47,117 nt of DNA from a virus, in IMG/VR virus record IMGVR_UViG_3300029999_000008, positions 1 to 47,117 of that record; one strand, written 5' to 3'. The notes below the pieces were generated by a model. The model was not told where the DNA came from. It saw nothing but the letters and a program-made list of their open reading frames with translations, and searched no databases. Shown here piece after piece: positions 24,085 through 36,262 of the stretch. Made by a program: the position numbers and the translations under genes. Numbering within the stretch: the first letter of the stretch is position 1; the number at the start of each line of letters is the position of its first letter.

Positions 24085-24873
24085 ATGAAGCAAGCTGAAC
24101 TTAAGCAGATACTTGACGCGCACGCCGAATGGTTACAAGATAATTCAAAAGGCCAACGTGCGGACCTTTCGCGTGCGAACCTTTTGCGTGCGGACCTTTC
24201 GGGTGCGAACCTTTCGGGTGCTAACCTTTCGGGTGCGGACCTTACGGGTGCGTACCTTTCGGGTGCGTACCTTTCGCGTGCGGACCTTACGGGTGCGGAC
24301 CTTACGCGTGCGTACCTTTCGGGTGCGGACCTTACGGGTGCGGACCTTACGCGTGCGAACCTTTTGGGTGCGTACCTTTCGCGTGCGGACCTTTCGGGTG
24401 CTAACCTTTCGCGTGCGTACCTTACGGGTGCGGACCTTACGCGTGCGTACCTTTCGCGTGCGAACCTTTCGGGTGCGAACCTTTCGGGTGCTAACCTTTC
24501 GGATGCGAACCTTTTGGGTGCGTACCTTTCGCGTGCGAACCTTTCGCCACATTCTCTGGTGCCTGAAGAGGGCGAGTTCATAGCATTTAAGAAGCTGAAG
24601 GATGGTAAAGTTGCAAAGCTTTTGATACCGGCCTATGCAAAGCGCGTATCGTCATTAGTTGGACGCAAATGTCGCGCGTCACATGCACTTGTTCTCGAAA
24701 TAACATATAATGGCGTGCCGTACCCAGACGGCGAAGGCGTAAGCTCGCACAACTATAGGTTCAAGTACAAAGTCGGCGAAACAGTCCGTGCCAATCTTAA
24801 CGACGATATTCGTGTCGAATGCGCGTCCGGGATACACTTCTTCATTACTCGTAAGGAGGCGGAAAACTACTAA
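24085..24873 (+). CDS. pentapeptide-repeat protein with DUF5758-like C-terminus
   Basis: 262 residues. Residues 1-25 are a helical cap ([18 protein letters not shown]). Residues 26-155 are 26 perfect pentapeptide repeats A(D/N/Y)L(S/T/L)(G/R/D/P), which fold as a right-handed square beta-helix. Residues about 160-262 ([43 protein letters not shown]) match a domain often fused to such repeats in phages (DUF5758-like). Some pentapeptide proteins mimic DNA and block gyrase (MfpA, Qnr), but this arrangement is not known to do so. Confidence 0.85.
24160..24549 (+). repeat. 26 tandem copies of a 15-base unit
   Basis: Unit close to GCGGACCTTTCGGGT coding for the pentapeptides. Copies are nearly identical even at synonymous positions (the leucine codon is almost always CTT), so the array probably grew recently by slippage or recombination. 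All frames on both strands are open because the period is a multiple of three. Confidence 0.9.
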
Positions 24874-29031: not shown

Positions 29032-29362
29032 TACAGAAGTCGGCCGCAAAGATGACGGCGGCAAGCCGCGCATTGATCTTGTAGACCCGTCACTGTTGCC
29101 GGCGGTCGGATCAATCCTTGCGTTTGGCGCGAGTAAGTACGGAGATAGAAATTGGGAGAAGGGCATTGCATACGGGCGCGTGTTCGCAGCAATGCAGCGG
29201 CATTTGTGGGCTTGGTGGAGTGGTCAGGACATGGACGAGGAGAGTGGACTCTCACACCTAGCCCACGGACTTTGCAATTTGATGTTTCTCATTGCATTCA
29301 GTCGGCGGCCGGTAGAGTTCCGTAAGCAGTTTGATGATCGCCCGTGGAAGCGCGATGCTTGA
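29024..29362 (+). CDS. dATP/dGTP diphosphohydrolase-like protein (DUF5664)
   Basis: 112 residues overlapping the previous gene by eight bases. Conserved features of this phage family: KDDGGKPRIDLVDPSLLPAV at 9-28, FGASKYGDRNWEKG, then AAMQRHLWAWWSGQDMDEES and HLAHGLCNLMFL, an all-helical fold with His/Glu/Asp metal sites. Family members are annotated as dATP/dGTP diphosphohydrolases. No PurZ homologue was found, so base replacement with 2-aminoadenine is not indicated. Confidence 0.75.
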   Translation: MSDTEVGRKDDGGKPRIDLVDPSLLPAVGSILAFGASKYGDRNWEKGIAYGRVFAAMQRHLWAWWSGQDMDEESGLSHLAHGLCNLMFLIAFSRRPVEFRKQFDDRPWKRDA

Positions 29363-30644
29363 AGCCTTATACCCCTGGCAAAAAAAAGAAGTGGAAGAGC
29401 ATGCATTTGACACTAAAAGGGCTTTATTCTGCGATCCGCGCCTGGGAAAGACCCTCGCCGCCTCAGAATCTCTTAGTAAGGTATCTCACAGTACCTCCCG
29501 GGTCCTTGTGGTTTGTCCTCTCGTCGTATCCGGCATGTGGGCCCGGCATCTCGCCGAACGTGGAACATGCGGCGAAATACGGGTCATCAACTTTGACCGA
29601 CTCTCTGGACAGCTCGCAGCTCTGAAGAAGTGGGGACCGACACATGTCATCGTTGACGAATCGCACTACATCAAAGGAGTTAGTTCGCAACGAGGTCGGG
29701 CGGTTCGTGCAATCTGTCGATCGGCTGCGTGGGTTAGGTTACTCACGGGAACACCTGCACCAAATAATTACGGAGACCTATGGGGACAACTTGCAGCATT
29801 GGACGAGGATGTCTGGGGTCGCTACTTCAAGTCCTTCCGAGAACGATACCTGATCTGCGATCCAATTTTCCCGACGCGTGTTCTCGGACATCAAAACGTC
29901 GATGAACTTATGGAACGCCTCAAACCGTACGTGACATGGGTCAAGCGGTCGGACGTATTTGGCCCCGATCGTTGGCAGGAGAGCATCTGCGATGTACCGC
30001 TCGGCAAGGAAGCCGGGAAACTGTACTACCAGCTCGCGAAGGCATGGATCGCTGAGGACCCCGGTATCACGGCAACACACACGTTGTCGCGCATGACGAA
30101 GCTGCGCCAGTGTACGACTGGCGTAGTGATCGCGGACGATAAGCAGTCACACATAATAGACACCGGCAAGCTGAAGGCGGTGATGCGCGACGTGCTCGAC
30201 ATCCGCGGCATCGGCGAGAAGTGCGTGATCTTCTACCAGTACGCAGGTGAGGGCGCCGAGTACCTGAAGGCGCTGGAAGCATTACGCCCCGGCGTGCCGC
30301 ATGGCGTGATCCGAGGCGACACGCCGCTTGCAGAACGGGATCGACTAGTCGAACGGTCGGCTGCACCGGGCCCGTTCGCGCTGCTCGTGCAGATGAAGGC
30401 TGGCGGCATCGGTATCACGTTACGTCACATTCAGCACGCACTGGTGCCTACGTTAACATTCAGTTACGCTGAATATAAGCAGGCTATTGATAGAATCTAC
30501 TCACCTGACGAGTCTCGTAGCGTGACGCACTATATGTCACCCGGTACGATCGACGAGTTTCTTATGAATACACTGCGGCGCAAAGAGGAAGTAAACAATG
30601 TTTTACAGAGAGCATCCATCGCATCAATTGCCTTCGGAGTATGA
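29355..30644 (+). CDS. SNF2-type DNA helicase
   Basis: 429 residues. Q-like motif YPWQKKEVE, Walker A variant CDPRLGKT (26-33), LVVCPLVVSGMWARHL (Ia), box II DESH (101-104), LLTGTPAPNN (III), then C-terminal lobe with KCVIFYQYAGE (IV), LLVQMKAGGIGITLRH (V) and YKQAIDRIYSP (VI). This is the compact phage SNF2 helicase form, probably remodelling or unwinding forks or recombination intermediates. ATG overlaps the previous stop by eight bases. Confidence 0.85.
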   Translation: MLEALYPWQKKEVEEHAFDTKRALFCDPRLGKTLAASESLSKVSHSTSRVLVVCPLVVSGMWARHLAERGTCGEIRVINFDRLSGQLAALKKWGPTHVIVDESHYIKGVSSQRGRAVRAICRSAAWVRLLTGTPAPNNYGDLWGQLAALDEDVWGRYFKSFRERYLICDPIFPTRVLGHQNVDELMERLKPYVTWVKRSDVFGPDRWQESICDVPLGKEAGKLYYQLAKAWIAEDPGITATHTLSRMTKLRQCTTGVVIADDKQSHIIDTGKLKAVMRDVLDIRGIGEKCVIFYQYAGEGAEYLKALEALRPGVPHGVIRGDTPLAERDRLVERSAAPGPFALLVQMKAGGIGITLRHIQHALVPTLTFSYAEYKQAIDRIYSPDESRSVTHYMSPGTIDEFLMNTLRRKEEVNNVLQRASIASIAFGV

Positions 30645-30831: not shown

Positions 30832-31223
30832 AACTAGCAAAAGCGGCAGTCTTAGATTTTATCGACGCAGCCATCGAGAAGCTGCGCGCGTCACATGTAA
30901 AACAGCAGCAAGAAGCTGTTGCACAATATGACAAACGCGAGCTGGAACTAAACACGAAATGGGATCGCTTTCTTGCAGTCGCGACAGCAGCTCGTAAGAA
31001 AGGGTCGCCGATCACGAATACGATGATAAAAATGCTCGGTACCGGCGACTACTTTTACCTGAGTAGTCTGGCTAGCGAAAAACCGTCTTCGGATCCGTTC
31101 AAAGTACCGGATGATCTAGCTGGCATGAAGGCTCTAGTATCCGTCGTAATAGAGGATCAAGTAGATATAAAGACTCTCAGTAGTGCCGATTTACGCGACA
31201 TATTCAAGAAATACAGTCGCTAA
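30828..31223 (+). CDS. coiled-coil hypothetical protein
   Basis: 131 residues. Residues 5-60 are one long charged helix (FIDAAIEKLRASHVKQQQEA; AQYDKRELELNTKW), then a helical C-terminal half ending SSADLRDIFKKYSR. ATG overlaps the previous stop (ATGA), and its stop overlaps the polymerase start (TAATG). Possibly a polymerase accessory protein by position. Confidence 0.5.
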   Translation: MKLAKAAVLDFIDAAIEKLRASHVKQQQEAVAQYDKRELELNTKWDRFLAVATAARKKGSPITNTMIKMLGTGDYFYLSSLASEKPSSDPFKVPDDLAGMKALVSVVIEDQVDIKTLSSADLRDIFKKYSR

Positions 31224-33589
31224 TGGCTGAGTGTTCCCTGTGTCCGTTGCATCTGACGGCCGCAAGTGTCTGCATACCGGGCCGTGGTCCGAGCCCTGCG
31301 AGCGTGTTAGTCGTCGGCTCGAACCCGATCGGCTCAGACGATACGCTAGGCGCCTGCTTCACAGGCAAGCACGGGCGCCTGCTGGACGAGCTGCTTACAC
31401 AGAGTGGCTTCGATCCGAGCAACGTGAGGATCACGAATGCCGTGCGCTGTCAGACAGCCGACAAACTGAAGCCGATGCCGGAGTCTGTCAACGCCTGCCG
31501 ACCATACTTGAGGGATGAGATTCATGCAGTTCAACCTAAGATCATTATTGCGCTCGGTGACACGGCACTTCAATCTTTATGCAAGACAAGCGGAGTTTCC
31601 GTCAAGCGCGGCACGCGGATGCTACTGCACGACGACTTCGGGTTTCAGTGCGAAGTCTGGCCGACTTATGATCCGGGTCACGTACTACGACTCCCGAACG
31701 CGCGAGCGGTTGTTCTCGCGGATCTACGAAGAGCACGCGACTCAGCAATCCCCGAAGACGACGTAAGATGGGAGTGGTGGGACCCGAGCAAACCTATACC
31801 AGGGAGATTCATAGCTTACGACATCGAAACTGACTATAAAGGAGATAACCGTGTTACTCAAGCTGCTGTCAGTGATGGGCATTCCGCTCTCGTATGTGCC
31901 GAAGAGTTTCTTGAAGAGTTTCAACGATCCTTGCAGGGGCGTGCATTGGTGGGGCATAACTCTTGGGCGTTCGACGATCCGCGTACCGGCCTCGTTTCCA
32001 GCTTTGACACTATGGCTATGGCCTACCTTTGTGACGAGACTCAGCCTCTTGGTCTTGAGCCTCTTTGTGTTCGGTACCTTGGCGTACGCGGTTGGAAAGA
32101 CGCTAAGGACGCCGAACTCGGCTCCGACGCTTTCGCCGCTTACAATGCACGAGATGCGATCTATACTCACCAACTCCGTGAGAAACTTGCGGCCAATCTC
32201 GGGCCCCGTATCCGTCTTACCGATCACCTCCACGCCGCATATCTCGCCCTGGCAGACTGTACTGCCCGTGGTGTCTGGGTCGATTCGAAAGCCGTAGCAA
32301 AAGCGCGCGAAATGTTCGACGCCGCCGCGGCGGAAGCGCGCAAGAAGATGCCCGAGTTTTACCGCATGACGCAGCTCAACAAAAAGGGCGAAGTCATCGA
32401 CAAACCGATCCCATTCAACCCGCAGTCGAATCACCACATCGCCGACTGGCTGACCGAACAGGGGTTCCACCTGCCAAGTACGGCAACCGGAACAGCCAGT
32501 ACGGCAGCCGCTACAATCGCTGCACTACCACAGACCGGCAGCGTGCTCGCGCTGACAGAATACAGAAAGGCGAAGAAGGCGATCAATGCGTTTGTCAAAC
32601 CGTACGAAGAGTTTGCTTCAACAGGAGACGGACGGGTTCACCCTACTTATACCGTGCTACGTACCTCGACGGGTCGCACATCCGCTCGCAATCCTAATAT
32701 CCAACAGATACCCAGAGATCCGGTATTACGCAAAATGCTTTCGGCATCGCCGGGGCGAGTGCTCGTGTCCGCCGATTACGGCGCGATTGAGTTTCGTGTT
32801 GCGGCCTGGTGTGCCCAGGAGTCCAGTATTATCGCACGATACAACGAAAACGCCGAGTGGGACCCCCACCGTTGGTTCGCAGCGTTGGTGTATTCCAAGC
32901 CTGAGTCCGAAATAACGAAAGAGGAGAGGCAGATCGCGAAATCCGCGAACTTCGGACTACTCTATATGGCGCAGGCGCCGACATTGCAAGAGTATGTTCT
33001 CAAGACGACCGGCATTCATCTGTCGATGAGCCAGTGCGGGGAGATCCGGCGCCTGTGGCACGAGACGTTCCCCGGCTTCCGCGGATGGTACAAGCGCGTC
33101 AACATGTTCATGCGTGAGCATGGGTACGTCGAGAATGCGATCGGCAGGCGCCGTCACTTCGCGAACTTCAACGAGCTGTGCCACAAGCCGCAGGGAGAGC
33201 TTGTACGTCACGCGCGTCAGACAGAGGAGGGTACTCTGATCGCGGAGTCGCAGATGCGGAGCTACGCCGGCGACCTGACCAATGCCATGTGGCGCGAAGC
33301 GGTCAACTTCCAGGTTCAGAGTTTCGCAGCCGACATAGCCCTGGCAGCACTGGACGAGTGTCACTTTAACGATATGCCGATCTGCGCGTTCATTCACGAC
33401 GACATTAAGTTCGAGTTCGAGTGGGATGAGTGGAACAATAATCAGACCGTTTTAGAGTTTACAATACGCCGCTGTATGATAGAATCAGCACTAAGCAATC
33501 TAAAGCAGAACTTCGGAGTCACCTTCGACGTACCGCTTACCGTGGAGATTAAAGACAATGTTACCTCCAAGCTCACCGCCGCCCATTAG
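31223..33589 (+). CDS. uracil-DNA glycosylase/DNA polymerase I fusion
   Basis: 788 residues. Residues 1-172 resemble a family 4/5 uracil-DNA glycosylase: four iron-sulfur cysteines C4, C7, C76, C92, LVVGSNPIGSDD where the usual motif is GEAPG-like, and a HVLRLP end motif (153-158). Residues 195-325: 3'-5' exonuclease, DIETD (200-204), HNSWAFDDP (245-253), YNARD (307-311). Residues 430-788: family A polymerase, motif A DYGAIEFR (518-525), motif B RQIAKSANFGLLY (569-581), motif C HDD (725-727, usually HDE). Replicates phage DNA. The glycosylase part may be catalytic or only bind uracil. Confidence 0.9.
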   Translation: MAECSLCPLHLTAASVCIPGRGPSPASVLVVGSNPIGSDDTLGACFTGKHGRLLDELLTQSGFDPSNVRITNAVRCQTADKLKPMPESVNACRPYLRDEIHAVQPKIIIALGDTALQSLCKTSGVSVKRGTRMLLHDDFGFQCEVWPTYDPGHVLRLPNARAVVLADLRRARDSAIPEDDVRWEWWDPSKPIPGRFIAYDIETDYKGDNRVTQAAVSDGHSALVCAEEFLEEFQRSLQGRALVGHNSWAFDDPRTGLVSSFDTMAMAYLCDETQPLGLEPLCVRYLGVRGWKDAKDAELGSDAFAAYNARDAIYTHQLREKLAANLGPRIRLTDHLHAAYLALADCTARGVWVDSKAVAKAREMFDAAAAEARKKMPEFYRMTQLNKKGEVIDKPIPFNPQSNHHIADWLTEQGFHLPSTATGTASTAAATIAALPQTGSVLALTEYRKAKKAINAFVKPYEEFASTGDGRVHPTYTVLRTSTGRTSARNPNIQQIPRDPVLRKMLSASPGRVLVSADYGAIEFRVAAWCAQESSIIARYNENAEWDPHRWFAALVYSKPESEITKEERQIAKSANFGLLYMAQAPTLQEYVLKTTGIHLSMSQCGEIRRLWHETFPGFRGWYKRVNMFMREHGYVENAIGRRRHFANFNELCHKPQGELVRHARQTEEGTLIAESQMRSYAGDLTNAMWREAVNFQVQSFAADIALAALDECHFNDMPICAFIHDDIKFEFEWDEWNNNQTVLEFTIRRCMIESALSNLKQNFGVTFDVPLTVEIKDNVTSKLTAAH

Positions 33590-33755
33590 CTCGCCCAGCC
33601 CGTTGCCGACGTCATCAGTGCCGTTCAAGCCTCTGATATGCGAAGGCAACCCGATCGACTTCGGTGGCGGACGAGCAGCGATCTATTTCGTGTGTCACTC
33701 CAAGGACGGTAAGATCTACACCGGGCAGATTCCGCTCGGCGAGGTTCGTCGCTAG
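33558..33755 (+). CDS. small proline/serine-rich protein
   Basis: 65 residues from an ATG inside the polymerase 3' end, with GGAG ten bases before. N-terminal 20 residues are Pro/Ser only (PPSSPPPISSPSPLP), then a compact part AIYFVCHSKDGKIYTGQIPL. Stop overlaps the nuclease start (TAGTG). Unknown function. Confidence 0.5.
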   Translation: MLPPSSPPPISSPSPLPTSSVPFKPLICEGNPIDFGGGRAAIYFVCHSKDGKIYTGQIPLGEVRR

Positions 33756-34543
33756 TGCTGTACCTGTCGAGTACGTCTTTGCATACCTGGATGCGGTGCA
33801 GGAAACAGTACGAGCTGTCGTTTATACGCGGACTGGAGCCCAAGGTTAAGCCCGAGGCTATGGGTAAGGGCTCGTCGTTTCACAAGTGCGCAGAGGCATA
33901 CTTCAAAGGCGAACGCGCGACCGACGAGCCGTTGCTGCCGGTATGGGAGGCGTTTATGCTGCATAATAAATTGCCGCTGGATGTCATCTCTGCGGAGTTG
34001 CCTTACTGGTGCGACCTTATACCCGGAGTACGCCTTCGAATCACGCCAGACCTTGTGTACCGCTCCGGTGACTGGATCGTATGCCGCGACTGGAAGACAT
34101 TTTCTAAGGACGGTGAGTGGGACGTCGATCTGGACTTTCAGGGACGCCTCTACACGGCGCTCCTCCGGCAGCACTTCAAAACCGAGAAGGTCCGCTTTGA
34201 GTATGTGAAGGTTCGCTCAGAGCTGGGCCGCGATCTAAAGAAAGGCTACGTTGCATGGACGAACGCCGAGCGTTACCCGGAGCCGGACGAGCTGATACCG
34301 TCGAAAGCTGAGTGCGATATTCTGCTCGCAGAGGCTCAGTATGCAGCCAGTGAGATACTGCAACTTCGGCTCACGGCGGGCTCTGTGGCATACTATCGCT
34401 CGCCACAACGGGGCTTCGACATGAACTCATGCGATCGGTGTCTCGTCAAAGAGGCGTGCAAGAAGGATCTGACCGGAGAGCTTGACGAACAAACGATAAG
34501 TCTGCTCTACAACATCCGCGAACCACTGAAAGAGATCGTATGA
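33755..34543 (+). CDS. Cas4-like PD-(D/E)XK exonuclease with iron-sulfur cluster
   Basis: 262 residues from a GTG. SSTSLHTWMRCRKQYELSF start, His43, Asp99 in ITPDL, Asp112-x-Lys114 in RDWKTF and Gln129-Tyr133 in DFQGRLYTALL make the RecB/Cas4 nuclease site. C15 with C226, C229 and C235 form the four-cysteine iron-sulfur cluster found in Cas4 and AddB. No CRISPR genes are present, so a recombination/end-processing role beside the Sak4-like ATPase and ssDNA-binding gene is more likely. Confidence 0.85.
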   Translation: MLYLSSTSLHTWMRCRKQYELSFIRGLEPKVKPEAMGKGSSFHKCAEAYFKGERATDEPLLPVWEAFMLHNKLPLDVISAELPYWCDLIPGVRLRITPDLVYRSGDWIVCRDWKTFSKDGEWDVDLDFQGRLYTALLRQHFKTEKVRFEYVKVRSELGRDLKKGYVAWTNAERYPEPDELIPSKAECDILLAEAQYAASEILQLRLTAGSVAYYRSPQRGFDMNSCDRCLVKEACKKDLTGELDEQTISLLYNIREPLKEIV

Positions 34544-35301
34544 TTTACCTCCTGGATGGTGACCTTTCCGGTATCGACTCGGTGCAGCACCTGATCGAGG
34601 CGAATAAGATCACCCGTATGCCCTGTCGCACATACACCGAGTTCGTCCGACATACAAAGCACCTTGCCGAAATAGTCACGCCTGCTGACCTTGTGATCGT
34701 CGATACCGTGTCGAAGCTCGCCGAGACGCTGCGCGACGACATCCTGCACGGCGAGGACCAAGACGACAGCCTGGCCGCGATCAGCAAGGAGATCAAGGGC
34801 GAAACGTACGGCCGCAACGCCTACCAGGGGGCGCAGCGCAAGTTCATGCGTCAACTTAAGAACATACACCGCGCCGGAGATGGCGCCCGGGTAATTACCG
34901 TATTCCACGAAACAGACCAGAAGGACCCCTACGATGTTATGCAAACAAAGCGCGCGCCATCGGTCAATCCAGCGTTTTATGAAAGCATTACAGCACAGTC
35001 ATCTGATATCTTTCGACTGTACGTTACGGCCGAAGACATCCTCGACCAAAAGACCGGAACAGTAAAGTTTCCACGGCGCACACGTTTCCTGCAACTGCAG
35101 GACGACGAGCACGCCCTGGCAAAGTATCACGTACGTCGTGATATCGCGGATAAGTTGCCTCGGCGACTTCCGAACCCGACCCTGCCGAAGCTGTGGAAGA
35201 TACTCGGCAAACAGTCAGCGTGGTTGACCGTGTACGGCCCTCCGGGAGCCGGGAAGACCACGTTGGTATGCAGTGAAGTTGAAGAAAGCGAGAAAAAATA
35301 A
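34540..35301 (+). CDS. Sak4/RecA-like ATPase, apparently circularly permuted
   Basis: 253 residues, ATGA overlap with the nuclease gene. The order of elements is unusual: the chain starts with strand IYLLDGD (2-8), then Walker B LVIVDT (51-56), RVITVFHET (117-125, the strand normally after Walker B) and beta strands to about 205; Walker A GPPGAGKT (233-240), preceded by its strand AWLTVYG, is at the C-terminus, which ends 13 residues later. In phage Sak4 recombinases Walker A is at the N-terminus, so the protein reads as a permutation cut after the Walker A helix. Neighbours (Cas4-like nuclease, ssDNA-binding-like protein, VRR-NUC) fit a single-strand annealing/recombination module. Confidence 0.8.
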   Translation: MIYLLDGDLSGIDSVQHLIEANKITRMPCRTYTEFVRHTKHLAEIVTPADLVIVDTVSKLAETLRDDILHGEDQDDSLAAISKEIKGETYGRNAYQGAQRKFMRQLKNIHRAGDGARVITVFHETDQKDPYDVMQTKRAPSVNPAFYESITAQSSDIFRLYVTAEDILDQKTGTVKFPRRTRFLQLQDDEHALAKYHVRRDIADKLPRRLPNPTLPKLWKILGKQSAWLTVYGPPGAGKTTLVCSEVEESEKK

Positions 35302-35303
35302 CA

Positions 35304-35882
35304 ATGGCAGTAGCAGAAGATCTTAACCTTATGGATCTCGCCGATCTTGATGACATCGGCGACTTCAAGCCCCTTCCGCCCGTCGGTAAGTACGTTGTTC
35401 GGCTGACGGAGGCAGTAGGTAAACTTAGCAAAAAAGGCAAGCCTCAAGTAGAGTGCCTGTTCGAGATTCAAGACGGACCACACGCAGGCGATGAGCTGAA
35501 GGCATGGTACGGTGTCGATGTCGCGACGTACACGCGCAAAGACGGCTCAGAGGGTAAACGATCGTTTGGTATCTCGAAGATCCGCCGACTGCTCGAAGCG
35601 GCCGGTGAGCCTATCCCGGATCAAGGTCAGATCCCAACCGGCACACTCAAAGCGGCGCAAGTCATTGCTGCGAAGATCATCAAGAAAAAGCTCACCGGTA
35701 AGAAGCTCGAAATCGAGAGCAAAGACGAGCCTATGTTCGATGGCAAGGGTTCGGCTCGTACGCCGAAGTTGAACGCTGAAGGTAAGCCGGAAGTGTTTCG
35801 CTCGTTCATCCCCCTCGGTTTGGCAACCGGCGGCGCTGCGCTGGCCGTTGATGAAGACGAATACGCGGACGACGCAGCATGA
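35304..35882 (+). CDS. ssDNA-binding-like protein (DUF669-like)
   Basis: 192 residues. N-terminus LMDLADLDDIGDFKPLPPVG then YVVRLTEAVGKLSKKGKPQV, ECLFEIQDGPHAG and GTLKAAQVIAAKIIKKKLTG suggest an OB-fold-like core as in phage DUF669/SSB proteins. The C-terminus is acidic (AVDEDEYADDAA), as in SSB proteins that recruit partners through an acidic tail. Two bases after the Sak4-like gene, the usual pair. Confidence 0.65.
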   Translation: MAVAEDLNLMDLADLDDIGDFKPLPPVGKYVVRLTEAVGKLSKKGKPQVECLFEIQDGPHAGDELKAWYGVDVATYTRKDGSEGKRSFGISKIRRLLEAAGEPIPDQGQIPTGTLKAAQVIAAKIIKKKLTGKKLEIESKDEPMFDGKGSARTPKLNAEGKPEVFRSFIPLGLATGGAALAVDEDEYADDAA

Positions 35883-36262
35883 CCGAGGCACAGTTAGTAA
35901 CAAAGATCCTGGGGGCCCTTAACGGGGTCCCTGAGACCTTCGCTTTCAAAGTTGTGGCGGCTCCGTATGCGCGTAAGGGTATCTCCGACATTATTGGCTG
36001 TCACAGAGGAAGCTTCTTTGCATTCGAGGTAAAGTTGCCCGGCAAAGAAAAAACTCTTACGATACCGCAAGAGAACTTTCTGGCGGCTGTACTCGCGGTC
36101 GGTGGCACCGCCCACACAGTTACATCGGTCGAACAGGCGCTTACATACCTGAGTGCGATAACAGCGTACGAACGGCAGGTGTCAGCAATCCTAAACGCTC
36201 TAAGATACCGCCCAACGCCGCAAACGCCAGAATGCGACCGGCCCATAGGCCCACACGATTGA
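35879..36262 (+). CDS. VRR-NUC nuclease
   Basis: 127 residues overlapping the previous stop (ATGA). Matches the VRR-NUC nuclease core: GISDIIG (Asp37), FFAFEVK (Glu50, Lys52), IPQENFL (Gln64) and VGGTAHTV. The family includes Holliday junction resolvases and FAN1-type nucleases, so a role in resolving phage recombination intermediates is likely. Last gene of the rightward unit; it converges with and overlaps a minus-strand gene by 122 bases. Confidence 0.8.
   Translation: MTEAQLVTKILGALNGVPETFAFKVVAAPYARKGISDIIGCHRGSFFAFEVKLPGKEKTLTIPQENFLAAVLAVGGTAHTVTSVEQALTYLSAITAYERQVSAILNALRYRPTPQTPECDRPIGPHD

Follow-up and report, generated by a model that had tools for sequence, protein, structure and literature searches.

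How can a RecA-like ATPase carry its Walker A motif at the very end of its chain? The question is raised by a plus-strand gene at 34540-35301 of the window, by which we mean the whole 47,117-nucleotide stretch of virus DNA analysed here (positions 1 to 47,117 of IMG/VR virus record IMGVR_UViG_3300029999_000008). Positions 34540-35298 encode a protein of 253 amino acids in which Walker B (LVIVDT, residues 51-56, at 34690-34707) precedes Walker A (GPPGAGKT, residues 233-240), with 13 residues left to the C-terminus. An earlier reading of these letters without database searches (the sequence-only reading) had noted this motif order, which the translation confirms, and had taken the protein for a circularly permuted Sak4/RecA-like ATPase, a view that is supported by the profile comparisons and homologues described here.

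The gene is in frame and part of an operon: its ATG overlaps the stop codon of a PD-(D/E)XK nuclease gene (33755-34543, plus strand; PF12705, 58.8 bits) by four nucleotides (ATGA, 34540-34543), and three nucleotides past its own stop codon begins the gene of an SSB-like protein with an acidic tail (35304-35882, plus strand; phrog_7778, 2.5e-4; homologue in the permuted contig L128, 1.4e-17). This is the coupling to nuclease and ssDNA-binding-like genes that had been read from the sequence. GC content at the three codon positions (0.61/0.39/0.67) is like that of the neighbouring nuclease gene (0.59/0.40/0.68), indicating that the 34540 frame is likely coding. Remnants of the old N-terminal piece were sought 5' of the gene, with nothing convincing found.

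Two profiles connect the protein to Sak4. It matches phrog_124 (Sak4-like ssDNA annealing protein) with 1.7e-16 in native order and 1.1e-17 when rotated, and Pfam AAA_24 (PF13479) with 8.5e-13 and 49.0 bits (curated cut-off 27). Both match the native protein in pieces and the rotated protein in one continuous stretch: for AAA_24, the best stretch in native order pairs protein 24-192 with profile 42-189 and thus starts well past the P-loop of the profile, and rotation yields a single stretch over profile 6-189. For comparison, 80 related IMG/VR loci were fetched via the polymerase, together with two named phages that have the same gene order; the resulting canonical set consists of 56 Sak4 homologues, including a protein of Mycobacterium phage Patience, and most of them adjoin a polymerase and a nuclease. 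Walker A precedes Walker B in all 55 canonical comparators whose P-loop end is covered, consistent with the N-terminal Walker A that the sequence-only reading had ascribed to Sak4 recombinases.

Rotation of the chain restores this order and improves the match. Against a profile of the 56 canonical proteins, the best single stretch of the native window protein reaches 33 bits and covers profile 92-297 only; when the protein is rotated with a cut at 227/228, it reaches 56 bits in one stretch over profile 67-297. The best of 200 composition shuffles scored 9.7 bits, and each of eight canonical proteins, when the profile was built without it, scored best at or near its native order. When the five-member permuted family (the window protein and four relatives, see below) was compared with canonical Sak4 profile to profile, the native chain split into two hits in crossed order (query 2-223 to template 110-323 and query 224-242 to template 88-106, with scores of 124 and 63) and the rotated chain gave one continuous hit (88-322, score 178). 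This puts the cut after the Walker A helix and before the strand that follows it, where it had been suspected. A mixed alignment was dropped, as it set canonical C-termini on the P-loop. The rotated window protein matched no RecA-family chain in a phmmer search of the PDB, and resemblance to RecA is by fold only. Judged by these profiles, the window protein is homologous to the phage annealase Sak4 and circularly permuted relative to it; we file it as a permuted variant and not as an ordinary member, because the Walker order is B then A both in the window and in four relatives.

These four relatives, each on a separate IMG/VR contig, were found with a signature of the joint (NPT codons, followed 36-66 nucleotides later by GxxGxGKT codons) that occurs once in the window and not at all in shuffles. 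The signature matched 42 stretches in IMG/VR, of which four are permuted Sak4 genes: L115, L117, L090 and L122 (L115 and L128 are the same contig, as are L117 and L130). A scan of IMG/VR with the family alignment recovered these contigs again, now with more flanking sequence, and added none. Identity to the window protein is 41% (L115/L128), 39% (L090/L129) and 38% (L117/L130) almost end to end, and 31% over about 200 residues for L122, which is nearer to canonical Sak4. All four match phrog_124 (4.4e-15 to 1.7e-27) and exceed the AAA_24 cut-off of 27 bits (L128 44.2, L130 30.6, L129 31.5, L122 57.5). The three closer members likewise gain bits when rotated at the same place. In L122 the two pieces are kept apart by an N-terminal extension, so that rotation brings almost no gain in bits, but two separate matches make its order plain. 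Walker A is C-terminal in every one of these proteins. K239, T240, D55, H123, R159 and NPT (212-214) are invariant in all five, and each of the five records has one Sak4 and no second copy.

A decayed or truncated Sak4 that has lost its N-terminal P-loop and carries an unrelated C-terminal GKT by chance would account for the missing canonical N-terminal arm and for the low similarity to canonical Sak4 (about 20%). Such decay is highly improbable, given that the same order is found in four other phages at 31-41% identity with invariant catalytic residues, that profile comparison recognises the P-loop strand and helix of canonical Sak4 in the relocated piece (hhalign 95%) and that coding statistics look normal; the sequence-only reading, too, had seen no sign of decay in the gene. 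It is equally hard to believe that assembly or binning rotated one gene artificially: all five sequences do come from uncultivated virus contigs, and an isolate with the permuted form was not found, but the joint recurs on five separate contigs whose identity is about 40% at most, their flanks are intact, and in two of them an in-frame stop directly precedes the start codon (L128 TAG ATG, L130 TAA GTG). These stops fix the N-termini of the L128 and L130 proteins and leave no in-frame P-loop hidden upstream.

Several features differ between the members. The L122 gene (L122:3445-4239) encodes the most canonical-like permuted protein, with an N-terminal extension of about 24 residues before the first core strand that is possibly a trace of an earlier stage. 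At L129:7985-8006 there is no ATG, GTG or TTG at the expected start and AAGGAG lies about six nucleotides before ATT ATT; this gene may be translated from ATT. A small open frame lies between nuclease and Sak4 in L128 (7434-7805), L129 (7520-7990) and L130 (2479-2991) and is absent in the window; these frames of L128, L129 and L130 have no P-loop and no clear similarity to Sak4.

Other searches added no members. IMG/VR was scanned with the window protein, alone and in a first alignment, and with the polymerase and the terminase as single proteins; none of these scans gave a relative, probably because such a search requires near-exact short peptides. There was nothing convincing in a tblastn search of phages and plasmids with the window protein, and no permuted Sak4 among the matches listed for either an IMG/VR scan with the AAT-codon version of the joint or a scan of bacterial genomes with the AAC version. 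Serratia phages Serbin, Tlacuache and Opt-155, which seemed permuted in a tblastn search with L122 (match to residue 251), were rejected: their Walker A is N-terminal and the C-terminal match is a chance basic tail. L109, L231 and L241 matched the joint pattern with both NPT and P-loop at the N-terminus and are canonical.

In a tree of Sak4 proteins, the five permuted proteins (rotated) form one group (support 99/96), and the four available polymerases of the permuted contigs also form one group in the polymerase tree (100/99), in which the branch of L122 is long (the root is unplaced). The permutation probably arose once, when a Sak4 gene was duplicated and then lost its first and last pieces.

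The path of the chain can be followed through the gene. The protein now starts with a predicted strand at residues 2-6 (IYLLD, 34543-34557); its counterpart in canonical Sak4, by alignment, is the strand that follows the P-loop helix and is second in the core. Walker B follows, with D55 invariant in an alignment of 37 rows, and then the sensor-like His123 (34906-34908), which aligns to the conserved H/Q found after the next core strand in canonical Sak4. Residues 212-222 (NPTLPKLWKIL, 35173-35205) correspond to the C-terminal motif NPT[LM]P and helix of canonical Sak4 (of the type NPTMPQVIEAW; a Pro is aligned at this motif in 50 of 53 canonical rows), and in the window protein they run via a new five-residue linker (GKQSA, 223-227, 35206-35220) from the old C-terminus into the old N-terminal strand. 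The relocated P-loop unit (35221-35298) comprises strand 228-233, GPPGAGKT, helix 239-249 and a short tail; linker and unit are defined by the rotation scan, the profile-profile comparison and AlphaFold, and the linker also by the homologues. All 253 residues are accounted for by elements of the RecA core, and there is no RecA C-terminal DNA-binding domain.

AlphaFold was run on the native order with an alignment whose canonical rows lacked the P-loop piece, and from which three rows from two named phages (L002, L003) were left out; the P-loop was thus informed by permuted rows only. The model has a pLDDT of 85 and a pTM of 0.81, and replaces an earlier one with canonical P-loop fragments (pLDDT 82). 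Its secondary structure ends with strand 228-233, the P-loop and helix 239-249 at the C-terminus, so that the C-terminal GKT lies within a strand-loop-helix unit; from pLDDT, pTM and sequence, the C-terminal strand is predicted to insert into the core sheet. The nearest folds of the chain as encoded are RecA-like: Foldseek, which keeps chain order, matched a RAD51 paralogue complex (1.9e-4), RecA (8.7e-4) and DMC1 in the PDB, all with weak E-values, and phage AAA-ATPases and RecA-like recombinases among viral models (best 1.8e-10, TM 0.64). With a linker of just five residues and the P-loop unit at the chain end, the unit might complete the ATP site of a neighbouring subunit by a domain swap, but we regard this as quite unlikely, as confidence is high across the unit in the monomer model (pLDDT of 93, 93 and 82 for blocks within 211-240, in addition to the pTM). 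The chain runs from the second core strand via Walker B and the sensor strand to the helix of the old C-terminus, and reaches the P-loop unit through the linker; the folded core should be unchanged, so that Walker A and Walker B would come together at a single ATP site.

The permuted contigs share a module, as far as each of them reaches, that consists of an SNF2-like helicase, a polymerase, the nuclease, the permuted Sak4, the SSB-like protein and a VRR-NUC-type endonuclease. In the window, the other members of this module, all on the plus strand, are the SNF2-like DNA helicase conserved in the permuted clade (29331-30644; phrog_62, 5.3e-76), a family A DNA polymerase (31223-33589; phrog_17, 2.1e-106) and a small endonuclease of VRR-NUC/resolvase type (35879-36262; phrog_93, 2.4e-13). 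The N-terminal domain of the polymerase is presumably UDG-like; a fusion of such a domain to the polymerase is common to many of the 80 related loci. The L128 homologue of the SSB-like protein matches DUF669 with 23.3 bits (cut-off 21), and the SSB-like gene of L122 stays under this cut-off with 17.6 bits. The module is followed on the opposite strand by a long virion protein with a transglycosylase domain. Upstream, at 24085-24873 (plus strand), the window encodes a pentapeptide-repeat-like protein with many A[DN]LSGA units and a C-terminal domain, for which the fetched loci contain no homologue. Portal and internal virion proteins suggest that the virus is a podovirus. It is isolated: its terminase large subunit has only about 25% identity to those of named phages.

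What does the protein do? The canonical Sak4 of HK620 binds ssDNA and anneals it in an ATP-dependent manner, and is stimulated by a DUF669 SSB via the SSB tail (PMC5928155); replication of phage phi11 needs Sak4 and its SSB (PMC5499656). From homology and gene order we infer a canonical-like mode of action, in which the protein binds ATP, anneals single strands and cooperates with the SSB: it is very probably a Sak4-type single-strand annealase with a RecA core that works as canonical Sak4 does, its Walker A strand and helix having moved from the N-terminus to the C-terminus. The PD-(D/E)XK nuclease would produce single strands, the phage SSB would coat them and the permuted ATPase would anneal the coated strands, leading to recombination and concatemer formation. 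ATP use may matter less than assumed, as one report on the Sak4 of PA73, as cited in PMC5499656, describes a Walker A mutation without effect on recombination.

The canonical arm before the P-loop strand is missing from the permuted protein. N-terminal arms in RecA and RAD51 help polymerisation, and it is plausible that the loss of this arm altered subunit assembly. Together with RAD51 paralogue complexes and RecA as the best PDB fold matches, the missing arm would also fit a permuted Sak4 that no longer anneals and serves, as RAD51 paralogues do, as a mediator or filament cap. We consider this unlikely: the permuted protein is the only Sak4 of each record, it occupies the canonical slot in a module kept with nuclease and SSB-like gene, and the canonical HK620 protein does anneal. 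An annealase that acts like canonical Sak4 thus remains our preferred reading.

Among known systems, the protein is closest to Sak4 (phrog_124, AAA_24; e.g. the HK620 protein), with which it shares a core that is homologous by profile throughout, both Walker motifs, similar size, the lack of a RecA C-terminal domain and an adjacent SSB gene (common, although not universal, in the family); it differs in the C-terminal position of strand, P-loop and helix, in the joined old termini and in the loss of the basic N-terminal arm. Caudoviricetes sp. ctfzr933, Pseudomonas phage Lebethron, Serratia phage Serbin and IMG/VR loci L006-L085 have Sak4 in the same slot, after a polymerase and a PD-(D/E)XK nuclease and ahead of an SSB-like or hypothetical gene, but with Walker A before Walker B in all of them. 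RecA, RadA, RAD51 and the RAD51 paralogues share the core ATPase fold by Foldseek; the permuted protein differs from them in chain order and lacks both filament and strand-exchange domains. Circular permutation is already well established among P-loop proteins: the circularly permuted GTPases RsgA/YjeQ, RbgA/YlqF, YqeH and YawG are working P-loop NTPases with the motif order G4-G5-G1-G2-G3 (PMC6912228). They belong to the TRAFAC class, have another cut site and act in ribosome assembly, and we claim no homology. In a search of full-text literature, which covered few subscription papers, no paper turned up that describes permutation in RecA, RAD51 or Sak4, and the sequence-only reading, too, knew of no described circularly permuted phage recombinase of this type; as far as the literature found goes, such a protein is new.

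A bolder proposal, which we offer tentatively and which may well go too far, is that this protein is the first RecA-fold recombinase to be circularly permuted in nature: a single event in a podovirus lineage would have brought the P-loop to the C-terminal end and cost the protein its N-terminal arm, with the enzyme kept through deep divergence, and the free P-loop helix and the lost arm would alter assembly on DNA, allowing annealing without the usual RecA-type polymerisation contact. A permuted annealase with its own SSB is a candidate for recombineering. Because standard profile searches recognise such a permuted protein in part only and can label it as truncated Sak4, further cases of this kind may lie unnoticed in phage annotation. 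The five natural sequences offer a direct test bed for the roles of chain order and N-terminal arm in ATP use, DNA binding and assembly.
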